From: a virus
Direction: 5' to 3' (one strand)
IMG/VR virus record: IMGVR_UViG_3300030117_005059
Span: 1-63,714 of that record
Length of the DNA stretch: 63,714 nt
This document shows positions 1 through 8,166 of this stretch, one piece after another. Below the pieces are notes generated by a model. The model saw only the letters and a list, made by a program, of their open reading frames with translations. It ran no database searches and was not told where the DNA came from. The stretch's first letter is position 1; each line of letters begins with the position of its first letter. Made by a program: the position numbers and the translations under genes.

Positions 1-1932
1 CCCCCCCTGGTGGGCAAAACCACCTTGTTCAAGAAGCATTCTTGGTCCAAAGTATCCCAACAAACCACCAGCAGCAGCACCAACGGCACCACCAACTAAA
101 GTTCCAATACCAGGGAATATTGACCCGATTGCTGCACCAAATTGAGCGCCCTTAAGCATACCACCGCCGACCAAAGCTGCTGTACCGGCACCGCTGGTTA
201 AAGCACCTTTGATAACACCTAATAGGGCTTTTCCAATGGCTGTCAAAGCAGGCACAGCAGCGGATTGAAATTTATCCATAGCGCCCTCAAAATCCCCTTC
301 AAGGATCATACCAAACGTATCTTTTATACCCCGTATAAAACCCTGCACAGGTTCAGAATTAAATATCGATATCAGTGTAGGGAACAAATCATTAGCTAGG
401 TAGTCAATACCTGCGATTAAATTGTCAGCGATGAAGTTTGATATCCCCACTAATGTCTCGCCGAACTGCCCAGCACTGCCGCCGGTCATGTCCATCAGTG
501 GCAAAACTCTCTCAGACAAAACATCACCAATATGTGTAATAACATTTGCAAGTGGTGCAAAGACTCTTTTTGATAGATCAAAATAAACTTTTGACATATT
601 GTCTGACCTTTGTAATAGTGGTGTTAATACTCTTGTACCCAAATCAATAAGACTAGTCACCAACGGGCTAACATCAAGAACCATCTTTTGGAAGAAACCT
701 TTGATCTTGTCCATAAGAGAAAGATAATCTTTACCTCTCTTTTCTGCCTCTTCCCTTTCCATCCTTTCTGTCTCAAAAGCCTCTCGACTTACACTAAGTC
801 TCTTAAGGTCGGCTACTTCAAGTCCAGTAATACCAGCCAAGTTTCTCTTCTGAAACTTACTTAATTGATCAAACTGCACTCCCTGTGCCTTAAGATTGTT
901 CATAACAGCTAAAGCACGATCTGTTTCACTCATCTTCATAAGTTCTATCGTGTTAAGTTGTGTCCCGAACGTGGCATTCAATTTAGACACCACGTCCGAC
1001 GCTGAGTCGTAGTCCTCAAATTTATCAGAGAAAGCTAATAAAGCTTCGGCGTTAACGCCAAATTGTCTTCCCATCTTTTGAAACTCCAAAGCGGTTCCCA
1101 TTGCCCTTGGTCCTAGCTCTGCCAAAGATTTTGACATCCCTAGTGTCGCTCTCCCCAACGCTCCTGGGTCCATCCCCATGTTCTTAGCGGTGCCAAGAAT
1201 TGTCATAGAAAAATCTTCTACTTCCTTCATTCCTCCACCAAAAGTCCCAACAATCTGGTCTATCGCCTCAGTCGTTGTTGTGGCATCAATACCAAGCTGA
1301 CTTACGTCCGCAGCAAGATCAATGGCTGACTTACGAAATCCTGCTGATTCTCTCTGGAAGAAAGCAAAGTTATCATTCATTGTTCCAACTAGTTGCGCTG
1401 CTTGCTCCGTGGTGCCACCAAATAAAGCTAACTCTCTCTTAGCAAAGGTAAGCTCCTCAGTGAAAGCCATCGCACCACCAGTAGCTTTTCTAAATTCCTG
1501 TGATTGTTTTTCTACTTCTAAAGTCGCTGTAATTATGCTACCAACAAAACTAGAGACTACAGCCTTAACACCCTCGTAAGCTCCCTGTAGTGCTCGGATG
1601 CGTCTGATGGCTGCTGCGTGGTTTTTCTTGGCTTTCTTTTCTTCAGCATCTTGAAATTCAGCAACCTCATTGTTGTAGGCTCTTTGCTCTTCTTCAGACT
1701 GTCTCCTGAGAGCAGCAATCTCCGCCTCAATTTCTGCGGTCGCCTCGCCTCTCGCTCTGGCTTCCTCAAGGGCTTCTTTTTCAGCTTCAATGCGAGCATT
1801 AAGACCTTGGAGTTCAATTTGCAGTTGTTGTTCTCTCTCTGCGAATTGTTCTCTGGTTCTATCAGCAATCTCATCGAGAGCCTCTTGAAGTAATCGTCTT
1901 CGTTCTTCTACTGCTTCTTCAAAAGTAGCCAA
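1..1932 (-). CDS. Tail tape-measure protein, partial (C-terminus off window)
   Basis: One reading frame stays open from a TTG start to the window edge, giving 644 codons with no stop. The TTG is chosen because AGGAG lies ten bases upstream and an in-frame TAA closes the frame just before it. Residues 1-130 are charged and strongly coiled-coil. They are followed by a long helical region and then hydrophobic Gly/Ala stretches, including a glycine-zipper run near the left edge (GTLVGGAVGAAAGG). Tape-measure proteins set tail length and sit in the tube lumen. Size, helical make-up and position after tube and chaperone-like genes fit that role. I see no specific catalytic motif, and the family call rests mostly on architecture and order. 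Confidence 0.72.
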   Translation of the reverse strand, partial: MATFEEAVEERRRLLQEALDEIADRTREQFAEREQQLQIELQGLNARIEAEKEALEEARARGEATAEIEAEIAALRRQSEEEQRAYNNEVAEFQDAEEKKAKKNHAAAIRRIRALQGAYEGVKAVVSSFVGSIITATLEVEKQSQEFRKATGGAMAFTEELTFAKRELALFGGTTEQAAQLVGTMNDNFAFFQRESAGFRKSAIDLAADVSQLGIDATTTTEAIDQIVGTFGGGMKEVEDFSMTILGTAKNMGMDPGALGRATLGMSKSLAELGPRAMGTALEFQKMGRQFGVNAEALLAFSDKFEDYDSASDVVSKLNATFGTQLNTIELMKMSETDRALAVMNNLKAQGVQFDQLSKFQKRNLAGITGLEVADLKRLSVSREAFETERMEREEAEKRGKDYLSLMDKIKGFFQKMVLDVSPLVTSLIDLGTRVLTPLLQRSDNMSKVYFDLSKRVFAPLANVITHIGDVLSERVLPLMDMTGGSAGQFGETLVGISNFIADNLIAGIDYLANDLFPTLISIFNSEPVQGFIRGIKDTFGMILEGDFEGAMDKFQSAAVPALTAIGKALLGVIKGALTSGAGTAALVGGGMLKGAQFGAAIGSIFPGIGTLVGGAVGAAAGGLLGYFGPRMLLEQGGFAHQGG

Positions 1933-1951: not shown

Positions 1952-2284
1952 TTATTTAAGAGGCCACGAAATGCCCGTTTCCTTTTCAAACATTTGGATC
2001 GAGCGGTTTAGTTTAGCTCTTTGTTTATAAGTCATTGGGCTATCTAAACCGTGCCTCTTAATAGAGTCCATATACTTTTTCTCGCCAATCAAGGCGGAGG
2101 TAAATCGATCAACTTGAATCCTGTTACCAACAACTCTTACTGGCACTCTTGTGCCCTTAAACATCTTCTCCAACAAGTATTGAATCCAGGCACCAAAGAC
2201 CTTTAACATGTTCTCGTCAAGCTGGTCTTTATTACCGCTGTCCAGATCAAAAACAAATTTATTAAAGTCAATCATATCTTTCAC
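1952..2284 (-). CDS. Small protein upstream of tape measure, unknown
   Basis: A 110-residue protein with a GTG start, chosen because GGAGG lies seven bases upstream; the next in-frame ATG (codon 4) is too far from it. The protein is soluble and mixed-charge, with no signal peptide, membrane segment or recognisable motif. It is the first gene after a late-type promoter (2314-2322) and a terminator (2342-2367), and is probably co-transcribed with the tape-measure gene. A role in tail assembly is inferred only from position. Confidence 0.7.
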   Translation of the reverse strand: MKDMIDFNKFVFDLDSGNKDQLDENMLKVFGAWIQYLLEKMFKGTRVPVRVVGNRIQVDRFTSALIGEKKYMDSIKRHGLDSPMTYKQRAKLNRSIQMFEKETGISWPLK

Positions 2285-2322: not shown

Positions 2323-2341
2323 GGCATAGTCAAATAAATAC

Positions 2342-2367
2342 AAAGGGGAACCCTGTGGCTCCCCTTT
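2342..2367 (-). terminator. Hairpin terminator after the tail tube/chaperone unit
   Basis: An eight-base perfect stem (2342-2349 with 2360-2367, AAAGGGGA/TCCCCTTT) encloses a ten-base loop. It overlaps the stop codon of the frameshifted ORF at 2366. On the minus strand it is followed by a T-rich stretch (GTATTTATTTG); the plus-strand side is also T-rich, so it could work in both directions. It separates the sheath/tube unit from the tape-measure unit. Confidence 0.6.
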
Positions 2368-2593
2368 ATTTTTTGTTTGCGGCTCGCTTTCTCGCTTTGG
2401 CAGTGTCCTCAATTTCTTTTTGTAATCTTTTTAGGAACCACCTTCTCAGTTTAATTGGGAGATTATAAGATTCAAAGAAGCTCCATCCACCATAGTGTTT
2501 CAACAAGAAAAGCTCTTCATACACTGATTCTATATATGCGTTATTCAGGCCAAAAAAACTCCGCACTAAGCGGGATCTCCATCTCCTCATCAT
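2366..2593 (-). CDS. gp51-like frame, probable frameshifted C-terminal extension of the gp26-like protein
   Basis: A second frame overlaps the end of the gp26-like gene and stays open to 2366. The informative part starts at about 2551: 61 residues beginning GLNNAYIESVYEELF, with a basic PIKLRRWFLKRLQKE segment and a Lys-rich end. Small T4-like gp51/tail-chaperone proteins share this kind of short aromatic and basic sequence. The only ATGs in the frame (2593, 2590) have no ribosome binding site and lie in sequence coding for the partner's zinc ribbon. A run of seven T at 2552-2558 would let ribosomes leave the gp26-like frame and enter this one. I therefore read it as an extension rather than an independent gene. 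Confidence 0.6.
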   Translation of the reverse strand: MMRRWRSRLVRSFFGLNNAYIESVYEELFLLKHYGGWSFFESYNLPIKLRRWFLKRLQKEIEDTAKARKRAANKK

Positions 2594-3392
2594 GTCCACA
2601 ACTATTACACACGAAGTAATCACTGAGGACAATATCAGGATTCACTTGCTTATATACTTTTCTCATATGCCTAGCGTCCAATGCTGGCATTAGCTCAACT
2701 GCTCTAGCTAGATCAACGGGTTGAGTTGAACCATTGACACTAACTAGGATTGACCTTAGCAGGTCGGTTGATTGAGTTTCACCTAGTTTATGTTTTTTCT
2801 TTTGCTCTCTTTGTTTTGTGGCTTTCACCTCATCCCCAGCAGTAAGAAGTCTAAACTCAACAGGGTAACCGCTTTTAGGGAGAGTGGTCAGATACAATCC
2901 ATTTGCTGAACCTTTGGAAACACCTAGGCTATCTAAGTCTTGCTCTTTAAATTGCGTGATTCTCTCAATGCTATACGAAACCTCTTCCGCTGCTCCACAA
3001 GATGGGCAAACCATTCTTACTTCATAGTCATCACCATAACCAGTGACTCTCGCTGCCACCAAGATAGCATTTCTATCACCGATCAAGAGGTCATTTGCCC
3101 TGATTCTTTTATCAAGAACAAGACTGTCAACCAATCTATTCAAAGCCATGCCACTTTTCAATAGCGATCTAGACGTTAGAATATCTTCCTCTTTTGCTGT
3201 CATAAAACGAATCTCTACTTCGCCAACGCCAGCTAAAGGATGGGGATCTTGATAACTTTGACCTTTCGATGGCAATTTGACCATTTCCGTAGGAACTGAC
3301 CAATCCATCTGTGCGGCAGGTGCTTGAGTTGGAGCAGGGCTATTACCCTCGTGTAGATCTGGTACGCCCATACGCTCTTCGTTTCTGCTCAT
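2541..3392 (-). CDS. T4 gp26-like baseplate/tail-assembly protein with zinc ribbon
   Basis: A 283-residue protein. Residues 30-75 carry the pattern of the T4 base-plate family (PF12322): VKLPSKG, then EVEIRFMTAKEEDIL. A zinc ribbon follows, built from CPSCG near residue 130 and CNSCG near residue 262. The start has AAAGG upstream. In T4, gp26 belongs to the baseplate hub. Here the gene sits between the tail tube and the tape measure, the usual place of G/GT-type tail chaperones. It ends in FFWPE nine bases after a T7 run that could redirect ribosomes into the overlapping frame. Hub subunit and chaperone are both possible. Confidence 0.7.
   Translation of the reverse strand: MSRNEERMGVPDLHEGNSPAPTQAPAAQMDWSVPTEMVKLPSKGQSYQDPHPLAGVGEVEIRFMTAKEEDILTSRSLLKSGMALNRLVDSLVLDKRIRANDLLIGDRNAILVAARVTGYGDDYEVRMVCPSCGAAEEVSYSIERITQFKEQDLDSLGVSKGSANGLYLTTLPKSGYPVEFRLLTAGDEVKATKQREQKKKHKLGETQSTDLLRSILVSVNGSTQPVDLARAVELMPALDARHMRKVYKQVNPDIVLSDYFVCNSCGHDEEMEIPLSAEFFWPE
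2552..2558 (-). promoter_or_regulatory. Candidate ribosomal frameshift site (T7)
   Basis: In the zero frame the mRNA reads GAG TTT TTT TGG CCT GAA TAA. Phe-tRNA in the P site can re-pair perfectly after a +1 or a -2 slip. Either shift enters the frame beginning GGC CTG AAT AAC, which stays open for 61 codons. A -1 slip reaches TGA almost at once. The product would be about 341-342 residues instead of 283. Confidence 0.5.
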
Positions 3393-3453: not shown

Positions 3454-4014
3454 TTAGACAGTGCCCGCATAGCCAGCCACTGCGTTACCACTCCTTGTAA
3501 GTTCTGCCCAGTCGAATGAGATATCAACGCTAAGCTCTTGCAAGCCGTCATCACCGTAGTCAAGTCCCTGACCAAAGGACACCTTCTCAATCCAAGCGTT
3601 CTTAAGTTCCCACACTTCAATTTCACTTCCGTTATTATCAAGCTGCACAATACGAACAGCGCCTCCGATAGCTTCAATCGCTTTACCTTTACTGGTAGTG
3701 CGAATCGCACCGGGACCAGTTGGGTAATCATACCCTGATTTTCTAATGATATTAATAAGAGTTCTAGCAAGATCTGGATTAACAGGATCGCCCATGGTGA
3801 CACTAATAGGAGAGTTCCAAGTAACTCGCCCAGGATACTTAAACGTATGGTTCAAATATTGGTGCTCCTGCGATGCAATGGTTGCCTCCGGCTTAGCCGA
3901 AACACTCTTAACTACCCAAACAGGAACCCCACCTAGATAAAAGAAGAACCTATATTTTCTTTTCGGATCTGCCTGAGCGTCTCCCCAGAAAATTCCTTCA
4001 CCTGCATTTGCCAT
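3454..4014 (-). CDS. 19: Tail tube protein (T4 gp19-like)
   Basis: A 186-residue protein, close to the usual size for T4 gp19-type tube subunits. The N-terminus (FFWGDAQADPKRKYRFFFYL) and the C-terminal half (ELKNAWIEKVSFGQGLDYGDD, then LQELSVDISFDWAEL) match the beta-sandwich tube fold. The subunit stacks into hexameric rings that form the channel for DNA. It lies directly downstream of the sheath gene, as in T4, with GGGAG ten bases before ATG. Confidence 0.88.
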   Translation of the reverse strand: MANAGEGIFWGDAQADPKRKYRFFFYLGGVPVWVVKSVSAKPEATIASQEHQYLNHTFKYPGRVTWNSPISVTMGDPVNPDLARTLINIIRKSGYDYPTGPGAIRTTSKGKAIEAIGGAVRIVQLDNNGSEIEVWELKNAWIEKVSFGQGLDYGDDGLQELSVDISFDWAELTRSGNAVAGYAGTV

Positions 4015-4056: not shown

Positions 4057-7000
4057 TTAATCCGCAAACGATGCTCCAGTATTTGTAATCACAAAATCGA
4101 TTGCAAAGAACTCGGCAGTCCGGGTTGGTTTCAACAAAATCTTAGCGTAAATAATATTTCTATCAACTAAGTCTGGAGTCGTTGTTGATTCATCCAAAAT
4201 CAAGCGGAACTCTTCGAGACCAAATCTCGACTGAACGCTCCGAAGAACTGGCTCTGCTTGTCCAATAAATCTGTTCCATGTTGACTGAGTGTTTTGATCA
4301 AACAACATCCGACTTGCAATGAAACTAATCTCTTTCTTGAGGAACACCATCAAGCGGCGAACGTTAATACGGTCAAGTGCTGATCGAGTTACCTGTAGAG
4401 TCTTCTGTCCGAAGATCACAATACCCTCTGCTGGGAACTGTGCGATTGGGTTAATGTTAGCAGCGTACAACTCGTCTCTTTCGTCAGACGTCAGTCGTCT
4501 TGAAACATCAAGCACTGGTACACCACCCGCACCCTCAGACAATCCACCTCGTGCAAAGCCGGCTGGTGCATACCAAGGAGCCCGGACACGATCAGTGAAC
4601 GAGAACGCACCCAGGGCTGCAACCGAAGGCGGTGCCCAAAGAGCCTGACCGCTAACCGTATCTTGGATACGAACCCAGGGATAGTAAGCTGCACCGTAAC
4701 TATTGTTGAGCCCTCTTTCACGAAGCGAATCAACTGCCTGCTTGATAGAGAACGAGTTACGATCTTTGTAGCTCTTAGTATTTTCGCTTTGTGCGTCATA
4801 GACCTTTTCGAGATCAATGATAGCGATAGCGTCACCACGATCCTCAGTTACGTCTAAGAGATAATCAGTCACACCAACGGCAGTAACACCAGGGACGGTA
4901 ATGACATTAAATTCAACTACCTCTGGATCTCTTACAACATTAATCGCTCGGCGCAAGCTATGGAGTTCATAACTTGTTTTTTCTGATGTGCCGATATTTC
5001 TATTTGCAAAAGGTTCACGCTCAGTGATGTCCAAGCCATCAAAACCGCCGTGGAGGCAAGTGGTGAACTGGTTGTAGTTGTTTTCCAACACTCGCTTGTA
5101 TGAGGCGGACGCAGCCGAGGCGGAAACGATGTTTTGTCCGTTTTCAGTTGGAACTTTTGCACCAGCCGTGAAACTAAAGTCCGCAGCACGCTTACCACGT
5201 CGGTACACAGCCGCATCCGTCGATCCACTAACAGGTCCAACATCGTCCAATGAGAAGCACCACATGTGCTGCAATGGACTTGATCCTGCGTTTGTATCTT
5301 GACCAATGAAGCCACCATTACGCCCTTGGGCACCTGGCTCTGCGCCAATGTCAAGATTAGTAGTAGGTGAGTTCGAGTCATTTAGCCCCTGAGCCCTAGA
5401 CCTTAGAAGGTCAATAACCTCTGTGCTAAATCTATTGTCCGAAAAGGCTTTGCCAGTGTAAGCACCAAAGTAAATATTCTTTGGACTATTCGGGCTACCA
5501 TCAGACGAACTAATACGAAGTGGCAAGCTTGGCATGACAACTGATAGCTGCTGTGCGGCTTCCGTTCCTGAGATTACAGTTGCTGCACCGCCAAGGTGTC
5601 CACCGACAACACCGAACGCTGACTGTTCGCCACCGTCAACCATAACGTGACGACTGACAGCAGCAGGATTACTCAAGGTACCAAAGCTGGCAGCGCCACT
5701 AACGATTGCAAAGTCTCTGTATTTGATAGGACCAAACACACCGAAGGGTAGATACTCAGGGTTTGTTACCGCACGATCAACATCCTCATCCATTACCACA
5801 CGAATGTAGCGAGACTTGTTCGGATAGTTGCCGTAAGTTCGGTTTGCACCCTCTGAAGTTTGATATTCTACAAACTGATCACCGATTTCTCTAGCGATAT
5901 ATCTTCTAGCCGCAGGATTCAAACTTAAGTTATCAAATCTCTCTAGCACAACTGGTCTATTATCATTATCCGACAGACGACGAACAACAACAGAGAACGT
6001 ACCATAAGGATCAAAGTCATTAGTAGGTGCAGTGATGTTAGTGATAGAAATTTTAATTTCTCTTTGCGTGCTTTCCCCAGCGGAGATAGCTTCAAATCTA
6101 AACAGCTTCTGCATATTCTCTGGCTTGAAGCCAGAAGTATTAGAGCCTAGATCCTGTGAGATGTACCAGCCAGTTGTAGCCTTAGAGGCTGCTTGGCGGT
6201 GATCTGCTTGCTCTTGCTCGGTATTCTGATCATTGCGGAGCGGCATGACAGCGCCAATAAGGGTACCGGCAGTCTGCACAGTACCAGTAATCGCCAACTC
6301 AGCAAAATCAGTCTGGTTAACGTGTCTCTCGAAGGTTTCCCCCAAGAAATAGTTAATGTTTGTAGTAGTCCCAGGGAACTTAGCCGTTGAGATACCACTG
6401 TTTGTTAGCGTTGGGTCAGTGTTAAACACCTTACGGATAAATCTTTCACTGTTGGGATTAAAGTTGAACCTAATCTTATCAACTTCGCTGCCACCAGCAG
6501 TGATACTAGCAACAAACTCACCATTGGAATCACTCTTAATCAGAGTACAGCCACGGCTCTGGGTTTGTCTATTGTTACCAGTCGTTCCTGACAGGAGGAC
6601 ACGCCCACCAGCAGTATCATCGTCTACACAGTAGAAAATAGCTGCCAGGGTACCCGTTGCTTGGAGAACTTGAGCACCAGTTGCTGGTCCTGAAGCGGAT
6701 GGCCAAACAAATAGCCCCCAAGCACCACCCTCAGTATCAGTGGCACTGATTGACCCAAACTTCCAGCCGGCTTTGCCGCCATTAGCTTCTGTTGCATTGG
6801 GGTCCTCTTCGCCTAACAGGCGAACAACGTTTAGAGTAGGATTGTTTCTTAACCAGGCTTGTGCAGCATAAGCAGCGTAGGTTGGGGAAGTCATGTTTCC
6901 TTCACGCCAAACATCTCCACTACGACCGCCGGGAACTGGTGCCCCGAATACATCAACAAATTCTGCGAAAGACTCAACTCTGACTGGAGTCATAGCCGGT

Positions 7001-7122
7001 CCTTTTTGCATACGACCAATAACTAGGGGTCCAATATCACCGGGTTCTCTTGGGATCTCCGAGTTGTCGATCTCATTAACGAAAACGCCGGGAGACACAA
7101 ACTTAAACTTTCTTTCAGCCAT
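4057..7122 (-). CDS. 18: Contractile tail sheath protein (T4 gp18-like), enlarged
   Basis: At 1021 residues this is much larger than T4 gp18 (659). The N-terminus (SPGVFVNEIDNSEIP, then GPLVIGRMQKGPAMTPVRV) and the last third (AAYYPWVRIQDTVSG, ALWAPPSVAALGAF, GIVIFGQKTLQ, then INVRRLMVFLKKEIS) are the conserved sheath core that polymerises around the tube and contracts. The extra length lies between about residues 100 and 690 and probably forms surface-exposed domains. AGAGGAG precedes the ATG. The unit starts at a late-type promoter at 7183-7191. Confidence 0.93.
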   Translation of the reverse strand: MAERKFKFVSPGVFVNEIDNSEIPREPGDIGPLVIGRMQKGPAMTPVRVESFAEFVDVFGAPVPGGRSGDVWREGNMTSPTYAAYAAQAWLRNNPTLNVVRLLGEEDPNATEANGGKAGWKFGSISATDTEGGAWGLFVWPSASGPATGAQVLQATGTLAAIFYCVDDDTAGGRVLLSGTTGNNRQTQSRGCTLIKSDSNGEFVASITAGGSEVDKIRFNFNPNSERFIRKVFNTDPTLTNSGISTAKFPGTTTNINYFLGETFERHVNQTDFAELAITGTVQTAGTLIGAVMPLRNDQNTEQEQADHRQAASKATTGWYISQDLGSNTSGFKPENMQKLFRFEAISAGESTQREIKISITNITAPTNDFDPYGTFSVVVRRLSDNDNRPVVLERFDNLSLNPAARRYIAREIGDQFVEYQTSEGANRTYGNYPNKSRYIRVVMDEDVDRAVTNPEYLPFGVFGPIKYRDFAIVSGAASFGTLSNPAAVSRHVMVDGGEQSAFGVVGGHLGGAATVISGTEAAQQLSVVMPSLPLRISSSDGSPNSPKNIYFGAYTGKAFSDNRFSTEVIDLLRSRAQGLNDSNSPTTNLDIGAEPGAQGRNGGFIGQDTNAGSSPLQHMWCFSLDDVGPVSGSTDAAVYRRGKRAADFSFTAGAKVPTENGQNIVSASAASASYKRVLENNYNQFTTCLHGGFDGLDITEREPFANRNIGTSEKTSYELHSLRRAINVVRDPEVVEFNVITVPGVTAVGVTDYLLDVTEDRGDAIAIIDLEKVYDAQSENTKSYKDRNSFSIKQAVDSLRERGLNNSYGAAYYPWVRIQDTVSGQALWAPPSVAALGAFSFTDRVRAPWYAPAGFARGGLSEGAGGVPVLDVSRRLTSDERDELYAANINPIAQFPAEGIVIFGQKTLQVTRSALDRINVRRLMVFLKKEISFIASRMLFDQNTQSTWNRFIGQAEPVLRSVQSRFGLEEFRLILDESTTTPDLVDRNIIYAKILLKPTRTAEFFAIDFVITNTGASFAD

Positions 7123-7191: not shown

Positions 7192-7218
7192 ACTTGATAT
7201 TGCAAACTCCCCGCAGTG

Positions 7219-8166
7219 TTATGGTTTTCCGAATGGTTTAATTTTGCGGGGAATTATCTTTTTACTTGCACGCACCTGATCAGCTAATCTGAACACTCCA
7301 CTTTCAAGCTCAACCTTCTGAACAAACTCTACTTCTTCCTCAACTAAAGCTCTTTCATTTTGGAATACAATTTCTGCTGCTGATTCTCTGATGACAACGT
7401 TTGGCTTGTCTTGATTCTTATCTCCACCAATAATATACCCGAGCACATTGATTGTCACATCGGTTTTAAATAATCTCTCGTCCTCACCAAGAGATGCAGC
7501 ATTGTTTGCCAACGAAAAGCTAGCGTCTACAAACGCCTCGTATCTATTGCCCTCATGAGTAATAAAGAAACTATTGATTGCACCCTTGTCAGTTATGATC
7601 GGTGCTAAAATTTGATTCATCTGTTGGACATATTCAGTTGTTATTGATACCGTATAAGAAACATCAATGTAGACCGGCTGAGGTATGGAGATCACCTCGT
7701 ATACAATTTTGCTGTTTTCCCTAGGAAACGTTTTGCGGAACTTGTCCGCACCAGACAAGCTTCTTCTAATCGAATCGGCGTTAGCTCTAACCGAAGTTTT
7801 GCTTTGTTTTATCCTTCTAGCAATAGTAATAGAGCCACCCTTCTCATCATTGACCCCTGGGAAATTACCGTGGTATATGCCACGGTTACCTGGGTCTTTT
7901 GACACAGATGTTCTCTCCAGAGAAATCAAAGGATAAATTAACGTTGTGTTATTGTCTCTAAGGTTCACATTATTCTTTATCATGTGCGCCCGCTCTTGTG
8001 TGGAAAAGAGCACGGGGACTTTTTTAAACCCCTTGTTTGTATCGCAATGAATATCTAAAGTTTCATTGATATATTTGAACATAGCAAAGTCAATATCCTC
8101 AATTCTTGAGGGGTTGATCGGCAATTGGGTTTCTGTTAACTCATTTGTCTTGGTTCTACGAGGCAT
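7219..8166 (-). CDS. 15: Tail completion/sheath-stabiliser protein (T4 gp15-like)
   Basis: A 315-residue protein. Residues 25-110 follow the gp15 pattern: a helix starting FAMFKYINETLDIH, a strand with VPVLFSTQERAHMI, then LIYPLISLERTSVSKD. A middle segment (SIPQPVYIDVSYTVSITTEYV) matches the second half of the family. gp15 caps the sheath/tube and joins tail to head in T4. The gene overlaps the gp14-like gene by 11 bases, and GGGAGGG precedes its ATG. Gene order gp13-gp14-gp15-gp18-gp19 is conserved in T4-like phages, which supports the call. Confidence 0.62.
   Translation of the reverse strand: MPRRTKTNELTETQLPINPSRIEDIDFAMFKYINETLDIHCDTNKGFKKVPVLFSTQERAHMIKNNVNLRDNNTTLIYPLISLERTSVSKDPGNRGIYHGNFPGVNDEKGGSITIARRIKQSKTSVRANADSIRRSLSGADKFRKTFPRENSKIVYEVISIPQPVYIDVSYTVSITTEYVQQMNQILAPIITDKGAINSFFITHEGNRYEAFVDASFSLANNAASLGEDERLFKTDVTINVLGYIIGGDKNQDKPNVVIRESAAEIVFQNERALVEEEVEFVQKVELESGVFRLADQVRASKKIIPRKIKPFGKP

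Follow-up and report, generated by a model that had tools for sequence, protein, structure and literature searches.

A tail assembly chaperone gene of T4-related phages that very probably yields a short and a long protein by +1 frameshifting at UUU_UGG

We analysed a 63,714 nt IMG/VR virus fragment (hereafter the window), which carries a T4-like tail module on its minus strand, and find that one gene of this module very probably encodes the tail assembly chaperone (TAC) in two lengths, the longer one made through a +1 ribosomal frameshift on UUU_UGG. The overlap of two conserved reading frames, the conserved site at their junction, the many relatives that have no alternative start codon, the protein family and the position of the gene are all directly observed. 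From these features we infer that the shift takes place in cells with some efficiency, that UGG acts as a pause, and that the two forms have distinct roles in tail assembly.

The 0-frame ORF (2541-3392, minus strand) starts with ATG, encodes a 283-amino-acid gp26-like protein matching PF12322 and phrog_150, and ends in GCG GAG TTT TTT TGG CCT GAA TAA, with the stop codon at 2543-2541. The T7 run just ahead of this stop (A7 on the plus strand) lies at 2552-2558, and the initial annotation had both its coordinates and its counts right. In the putative shift region (2549-2557, minus strand) TTT TTT is read in the 0 frame (2558-2553), one T is skipped, and reading continues with GGC CTG AAT. The +1-frame extension that is entered in this way (2366-2551, minus strand; recognised by homology, codon-position bias and hhalign) comprises 61 codons plus a stop at 2368-2366, and the predicted fused long form, with TTTT read as one Phe, spans 2366-3392 on the minus strand and is 341 amino acids long. 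There is one gp26-like gene in the window; given that the record covers just part of the genome, another copy may lie outside it.

The gene is located where such a chaperone would be expected from the initial annotation, that is, between the tube and the tape measure genes. Immediately upstream is the gp19-like tail tube gene (3454-4014, minus strand; phrog_4542, 2.5e-17), and downstream is the tape measure gene (1-1932, minus strand; phrog_167, 5e-9), of which the N-terminal 644 amino acids are encoded before it runs off the window. A single 110-amino-acid ORF of unknown family (1952-2284, minus strand) separates the chaperone and tape measure genes; it has no Pfam match, and its PHROG matches are weak only. 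Further upstream, the tail sheath gene (4057-7122, minus strand; 1021 amino acids) matches known families mostly in its C-terminal third, and has a large N-terminal or inserted region. Just past the end of the extension there is a terminator-like hairpin (2340-2369, minus strand; 13 pairs, 6 of them GC), which might lower the level of tape measure mRNA relative to that of chaperone mRNA; the number of terminator-like sites in this region is not much above that in shuffled sequences. We found no tRNA genes in the window.

The 0-frame ORF matches PF12322 with an E-value of 4.4e-13 (49.9 bits, exceeding the curated cut-off of 24.5) and phrog_150 with 7e-17, which supports its assignment as the short, T4 gp26-like form of the chaperone. 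We modelled the 0-frame ORF and the extension separately. Among solved structures, the N-terminal part (AlphaFold2, pLDDT 87) most resembles 3fgx (Z 6.6), followed by 2ob9, the tail assembly chaperone of HK97 (Z 5.8 over 75 residues, rmsd 3.0); the latter match is modest and falls below the level at which a common arrangement could be excluded. The predicted likeness to the HK97 TAC fold is therefore supportive but not decisive; the chaperone role proposed earlier is supported by the match to the PF12322/phrog_150 family and by the position of the gene. The extension is predicted to form three helices (pLDDT 91), and its model has no match in the PDB.

The relation to the two T4 proteins is best seen in profile comparisons. 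T4 gp26 (208 amino acids) matches the whole PF12322 domain; T4 gp51 (249 amino acids) matches PF12322 as well and then continues through the C-terminal part of phrog_150. When aligned with a profile of the corresponding C-terminal (T) domains from cyanophages, KVP40, DLP6 and T4 gp51, the extension scores an hhalign probability of 91%, in the same order and place. As judged by these profiles, the extension is the equivalent of the C-terminal domain of T4 gp51. Alignments of our family against the single T4 gp51 and gp26 sequences are weak; the family link rests on PF12322/phrog_150. The second frame had initially been described as gp51-like: while it is homologous to gp51, the homology covers only the C-terminal domain, since gp51 is a full PF12322 paralogue with an extension of approximately 48 residues. 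It would thus be the whole fused product that corresponds to gp51, and the short product that corresponds to gp26.

To follow the site across relatives, a first scan of viral contigs yielded 329 relatives, of which 80 were kept, and three further scans followed. Among the 80 relatives kept, TTY TTT TGG NCT is the recurrent ending of the gp26-like ORF, and a homologous extension is found in the +1 frame in 77/77 loci tested in this first set. Over all scans, the extension lies in the +1 frame in 316 of the 317 loci where it is detectable, a count obtained with a profile built from +1 members but searched against all forward frames; this provides the conservation of frame in related genomes that the initial annotation had called for. 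The sole exception (LR756511, L087) has an ATG at the overlap. Among 242 unique loci the junction reads TTT TTT TGG in 190, TTT CTT TGG in 32, TTC TTT TGG in eight, TTT CTA TGG in four and CTT TTT TGG in three, with five others, and the A-site codon is UGG in all but a few. After a +1 slip, almost every locus allows re-pairing, be it at TTT_T, CTT_T or TTT_C. While L001 and L002 share the site at 100% protein identity, hundreds of diverged contigs carry it too. The same +1 offset is present in the isolates Mel-JY01 (a Microcystis phage), immuto (a Flavobacterium phage) and RM378, and the same +1 arrangement with a visible T-rich site was found in 12 of 13 contigs read from bacterial genome bins (mostly Flavobacteriales), a hint that some members of the group infect Bacteroidota, although binning errors are possible.

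The junction is constrained beyond what the 0-frame protein demands. In a set of 159 representatives, Phe codons in the P site are TTT in 140 of 140 cases, as compared to a TTT share of 75% over the remainder of the gene; the NCT codon ends in T in 159 of 159, while most other third positions are near random (about 0.05-0.5 bit). Replacement of CCT by ACT, TCT or GCT leaves a Gly codon (GGN) in the +1 frame. Downstream of the junction, conservation tracks the +1 codon phase: substitutions at +1 codon positions 1, 2 and 3 number 8676, 4736 and 15628, respectively, the third position being favoured. Because the relatives share ancestry, p-values computed from these counts would be underestimates, but the contrast between sites of the same sequences holds, and on this comparison the conservation of the site is beyond chance.

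How would the shift work? Most ribosomes would read UUU UUU UGG CCU GAA UAA and release the 283-amino-acid short form. Some, however, would pause with tRNA-Phe on the second UUU and UGG, which is decoded by a single Trp tRNA, waiting in the A site; given the near-universal UGG in this position, a slow Trp codon is the likely reason for the pause. The P-site tRNA would then move one base forward onto UUU and decoding would resume with GGC CUG AAU, yielding the 341-amino-acid long form with its helical C-terminal domain. Following the lambda G/GT model, short and long forms alike would cover the tape measure protein with their N-terminal part, the few long ones would attract tail tube subunits through their C-terminal domain, and both forms would then leave. 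We detected no additional stimulators at the site. Shine-Dalgarno-like tetramers are found near it in only 7 of the 159 representatives, the mean z for RNA structure (-0.5 to -1.1) gives no signal over that in control windows (-0.6 to -0.9), and Rfam returned no match.

A -1 shift on an X XXY YYZ heptamer was considered and rejected for the group of the window, as the -1 frame closes after two codons in most loci. Among the first 80 relatives (L001-L080) this closure typically reads TTG GCC TGA or TTG GCC TAA, so that translation slipping to -1 by accident would terminate immediately.

The initial annotation had left the direction as '+1 or -2'. A -2 shift would move the P-site tRNA-Phe back by two bases and add one extra Phe, giving a fusion of 342 amino acids; phage Mu employs a -2 shift in the same kind of gene (PMC5009743), and on an uninterrupted T7, as found in 195 of the 242 loci, a -2 slip re-pairs just as fully as a +1 slip. 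Nevertheless, we consider this reading unlikely. In the eight loci with TTC TTT TGG, a -2 slip would place tRNA-Phe on TCT, which mismatches at the middle base, while the +1 slip re-pairs on TTT; in the CTA loci the -2 match is poor, while a +1 slip is available one codon earlier, on TTT_C. The members of this group thus do not all allow -2 re-pairing, as a Mu-type mechanism would lead one to expect, and any single mechanism that serves all loci must be +1. Of the two directions first proposed, +1 is favoured.

Could the extension instead be a separate small protein translated from its own start, for instance by translational coupling at a TAATG-type overlap? The second frame had been said to lack a good start of its own. 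This is a fair description, and what starts there are prove unconserved across relatives, although the window does hold weak candidates in the shifted frame: a GTG at 2566-2564, from which, given a GGAG located 10 nt ahead of it, a separate short protein could be initiated, and ATG ATG at 2593-2588. An ATG is also present at the overlap in PBECO4 (L090) and LR756511, and RM378 is annotated as having two separate genes. Against this, in 70 of the 242 unique loci the stretch of the shifted frame from the preceding stop to the junction is free of ATG, GTG and TTG, and for 56 of those 70 this also holds for the first 12 codons past the junction. In five relatives (L018, L051-L053 and L055) the shifted frame has a stop a few codons before the site, which confines the entry point to a few codons. 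An independent start moreover leaves the fixation of TTT-TGG-NCT unexplained, and the T4 long form is one fused polypeptide. All in all, we regard a separate start as quite unlikely.

Slippage of RNA polymerase on the T7 run, producing mixed mRNAs some of which encode the fusion, is very unlikely: while a homopolymer of seven might slip at a low rate, the T run is four or shorter in 47 of the 242 loci with the frame arrangement unchanged, which argues against a transcriptional origin. Finally, although homopolymers are prone to error, the chance that the overlap is an assembly error in a single long gene is negligible and the idea is in practice refuted, given that the same +1 offset recurs in hundreds of independent contigs and in the three isolates, as well as in loci without a long homopolymer (TTT CTT TGG); a sequencing error in the T run, a concern raised with the initial annotation, is ruled out by the same recurrence. 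The frames of the gp26-like and gp51-like parts had been proposed to be joined by a shift, and the conserved +1 extension and junction site support programmed +1 frameshifting as the way in which this is achieved.

Other members of the gp26/gp51 family are organised differently. Of 71 unique loci of the cyanophage type, 69 carry T TTT TTC in the -1 register; 66 have an SD-like element ahead of the site, and in 67 the -1 frame is open through the extension. Cyanophages thus appear to slip backward to make the long form; as each of the 69 -1 loci has a start codon within 15 codons, translational coupling is possible for them as well. Cyanophage and pelagiphage gp26 genes (L102-L105, L383-L462) end in an in-frame T TTT TTC (TTT TTT in HTVC008M); an SD-like element lies ahead of it and the gp51 ORF is in the -1 frame, even though gp51 is entered as a gene with an ATG of its own (P-SSM2, 7217-7390). 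The jumbo phages PA5oct (L091) and CBB (L110) have T TTT TTC and a -1-frame extension with no nearby start, and in PA5oct the extension is unannotated. PBECO4 has a TAATG overlap. In Listeria phage LIS04, Bacillus phage SP-15 and Streptococcus phage GXN1 (L085, L086 and L088) the extension is in the +1 frame and the gp26-like ORF ends with NCC CGA TTY before the stop (CCC CGA in GXN1); from this pattern, NCC CGA is a possible second, independent +1 site. In Rhodothermus phage RM378 (L089, 3123-3299), Rm378p030 is annotated as a separate gene, and its frame is continuous with the TTT TTT TGG site that ends the gp26-like Rm378p029; Rm378p030 is probably a frameshift extension.

The family thus has four ways to two forms: a -1 shift, a +1 shift, a TAATG restart and gene duplication. 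We lean slightly towards a scenario in which the direction of the shift was switched in evolution between -1 on U UUU UUC and +1 on UUU UUU UGG or UUU CUU UGG, at the same codons and FF residues and with the domain unchanged; in which the +1 signal would be minimal, consisting of a U-rich P-site codon and a Trp codon, with no stop codon, SD or RNA structure; and in which T4 would have escaped by gene duplication. A large T4-related group keeps one gene and, unlike T4, appears to use a +1 shift. With UUU_UGG as its only visible parts, this would be a simple and widely conserved bacterial +1 signal well suited to reporter tests. There is also a consequence for annotation: the entries of the relatives examined, Mel-JY01, immuto and RM378, which list the parts as two genes or lack one of them, can be corrected.

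Several elements of this picture have precedents. As in lambda G/GT, the gene lies between tube and tape measure, a short form would be accompanied by a rarer long form, and the C-terminal domain of the long form is encoded in another frame near the stop. The direction, however, is very probably +1 in the group of the window as compared to -1 in lambda and -2 in Mu, and the N-terminal domain differs from that of lambda G/GT in belonging to the T4 gp26 family with its zinc-ribbon-like CxxC pairs. RF2 (prfB) offers the closest parallel for the slip itself, with CUU or UUU in the P site slipping to UUU next to a slow A site; but RF2 has a stop codon in the A site and an SD 3 nt upstream, whereas the window group has UGG, with a close SD in 7/159. 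TACs have been described for T4-like phages, as has -1 frameshifting in relatives: PMC12846349 notes poly-T sites of the -1 kind for TAC genes from both T4-like phages and Vandenendeviridae. The -1 version (Kyanoviridae, KVP40, DLP6, CBB and PA5oct) shares with the window the family, a poly-T site and an extension following the codons for FF, but uses T TTT TTC and the opposite direction. The +1 UUU_UGG version, operating without a close Shine-Dalgarno or RNA structure, looks undescribed so far, as we found no report of a +1 shift in the gp26/gp51 family in the literature searched, largely that available without subscription. T4 itself is listed as the exception to the conserved G/GT frameshift (PMC5009743), its chaperones being reported to form with no shift, and PMC10274946 credits the short-gene-plus-long-gene solution in T4-like phages to Vladimirov et al. 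(2022, Virology 566:9). T4 gp26 and gp51 belong to the same family as the window protein (PF12322/phrog_150), and gp51 carries the homologous C-terminal extension; but in T4 the two paralogues are encoded by genes of their own, located on opposite strands, with no shift, while the window has one gene and, very probably, a +1 shift.
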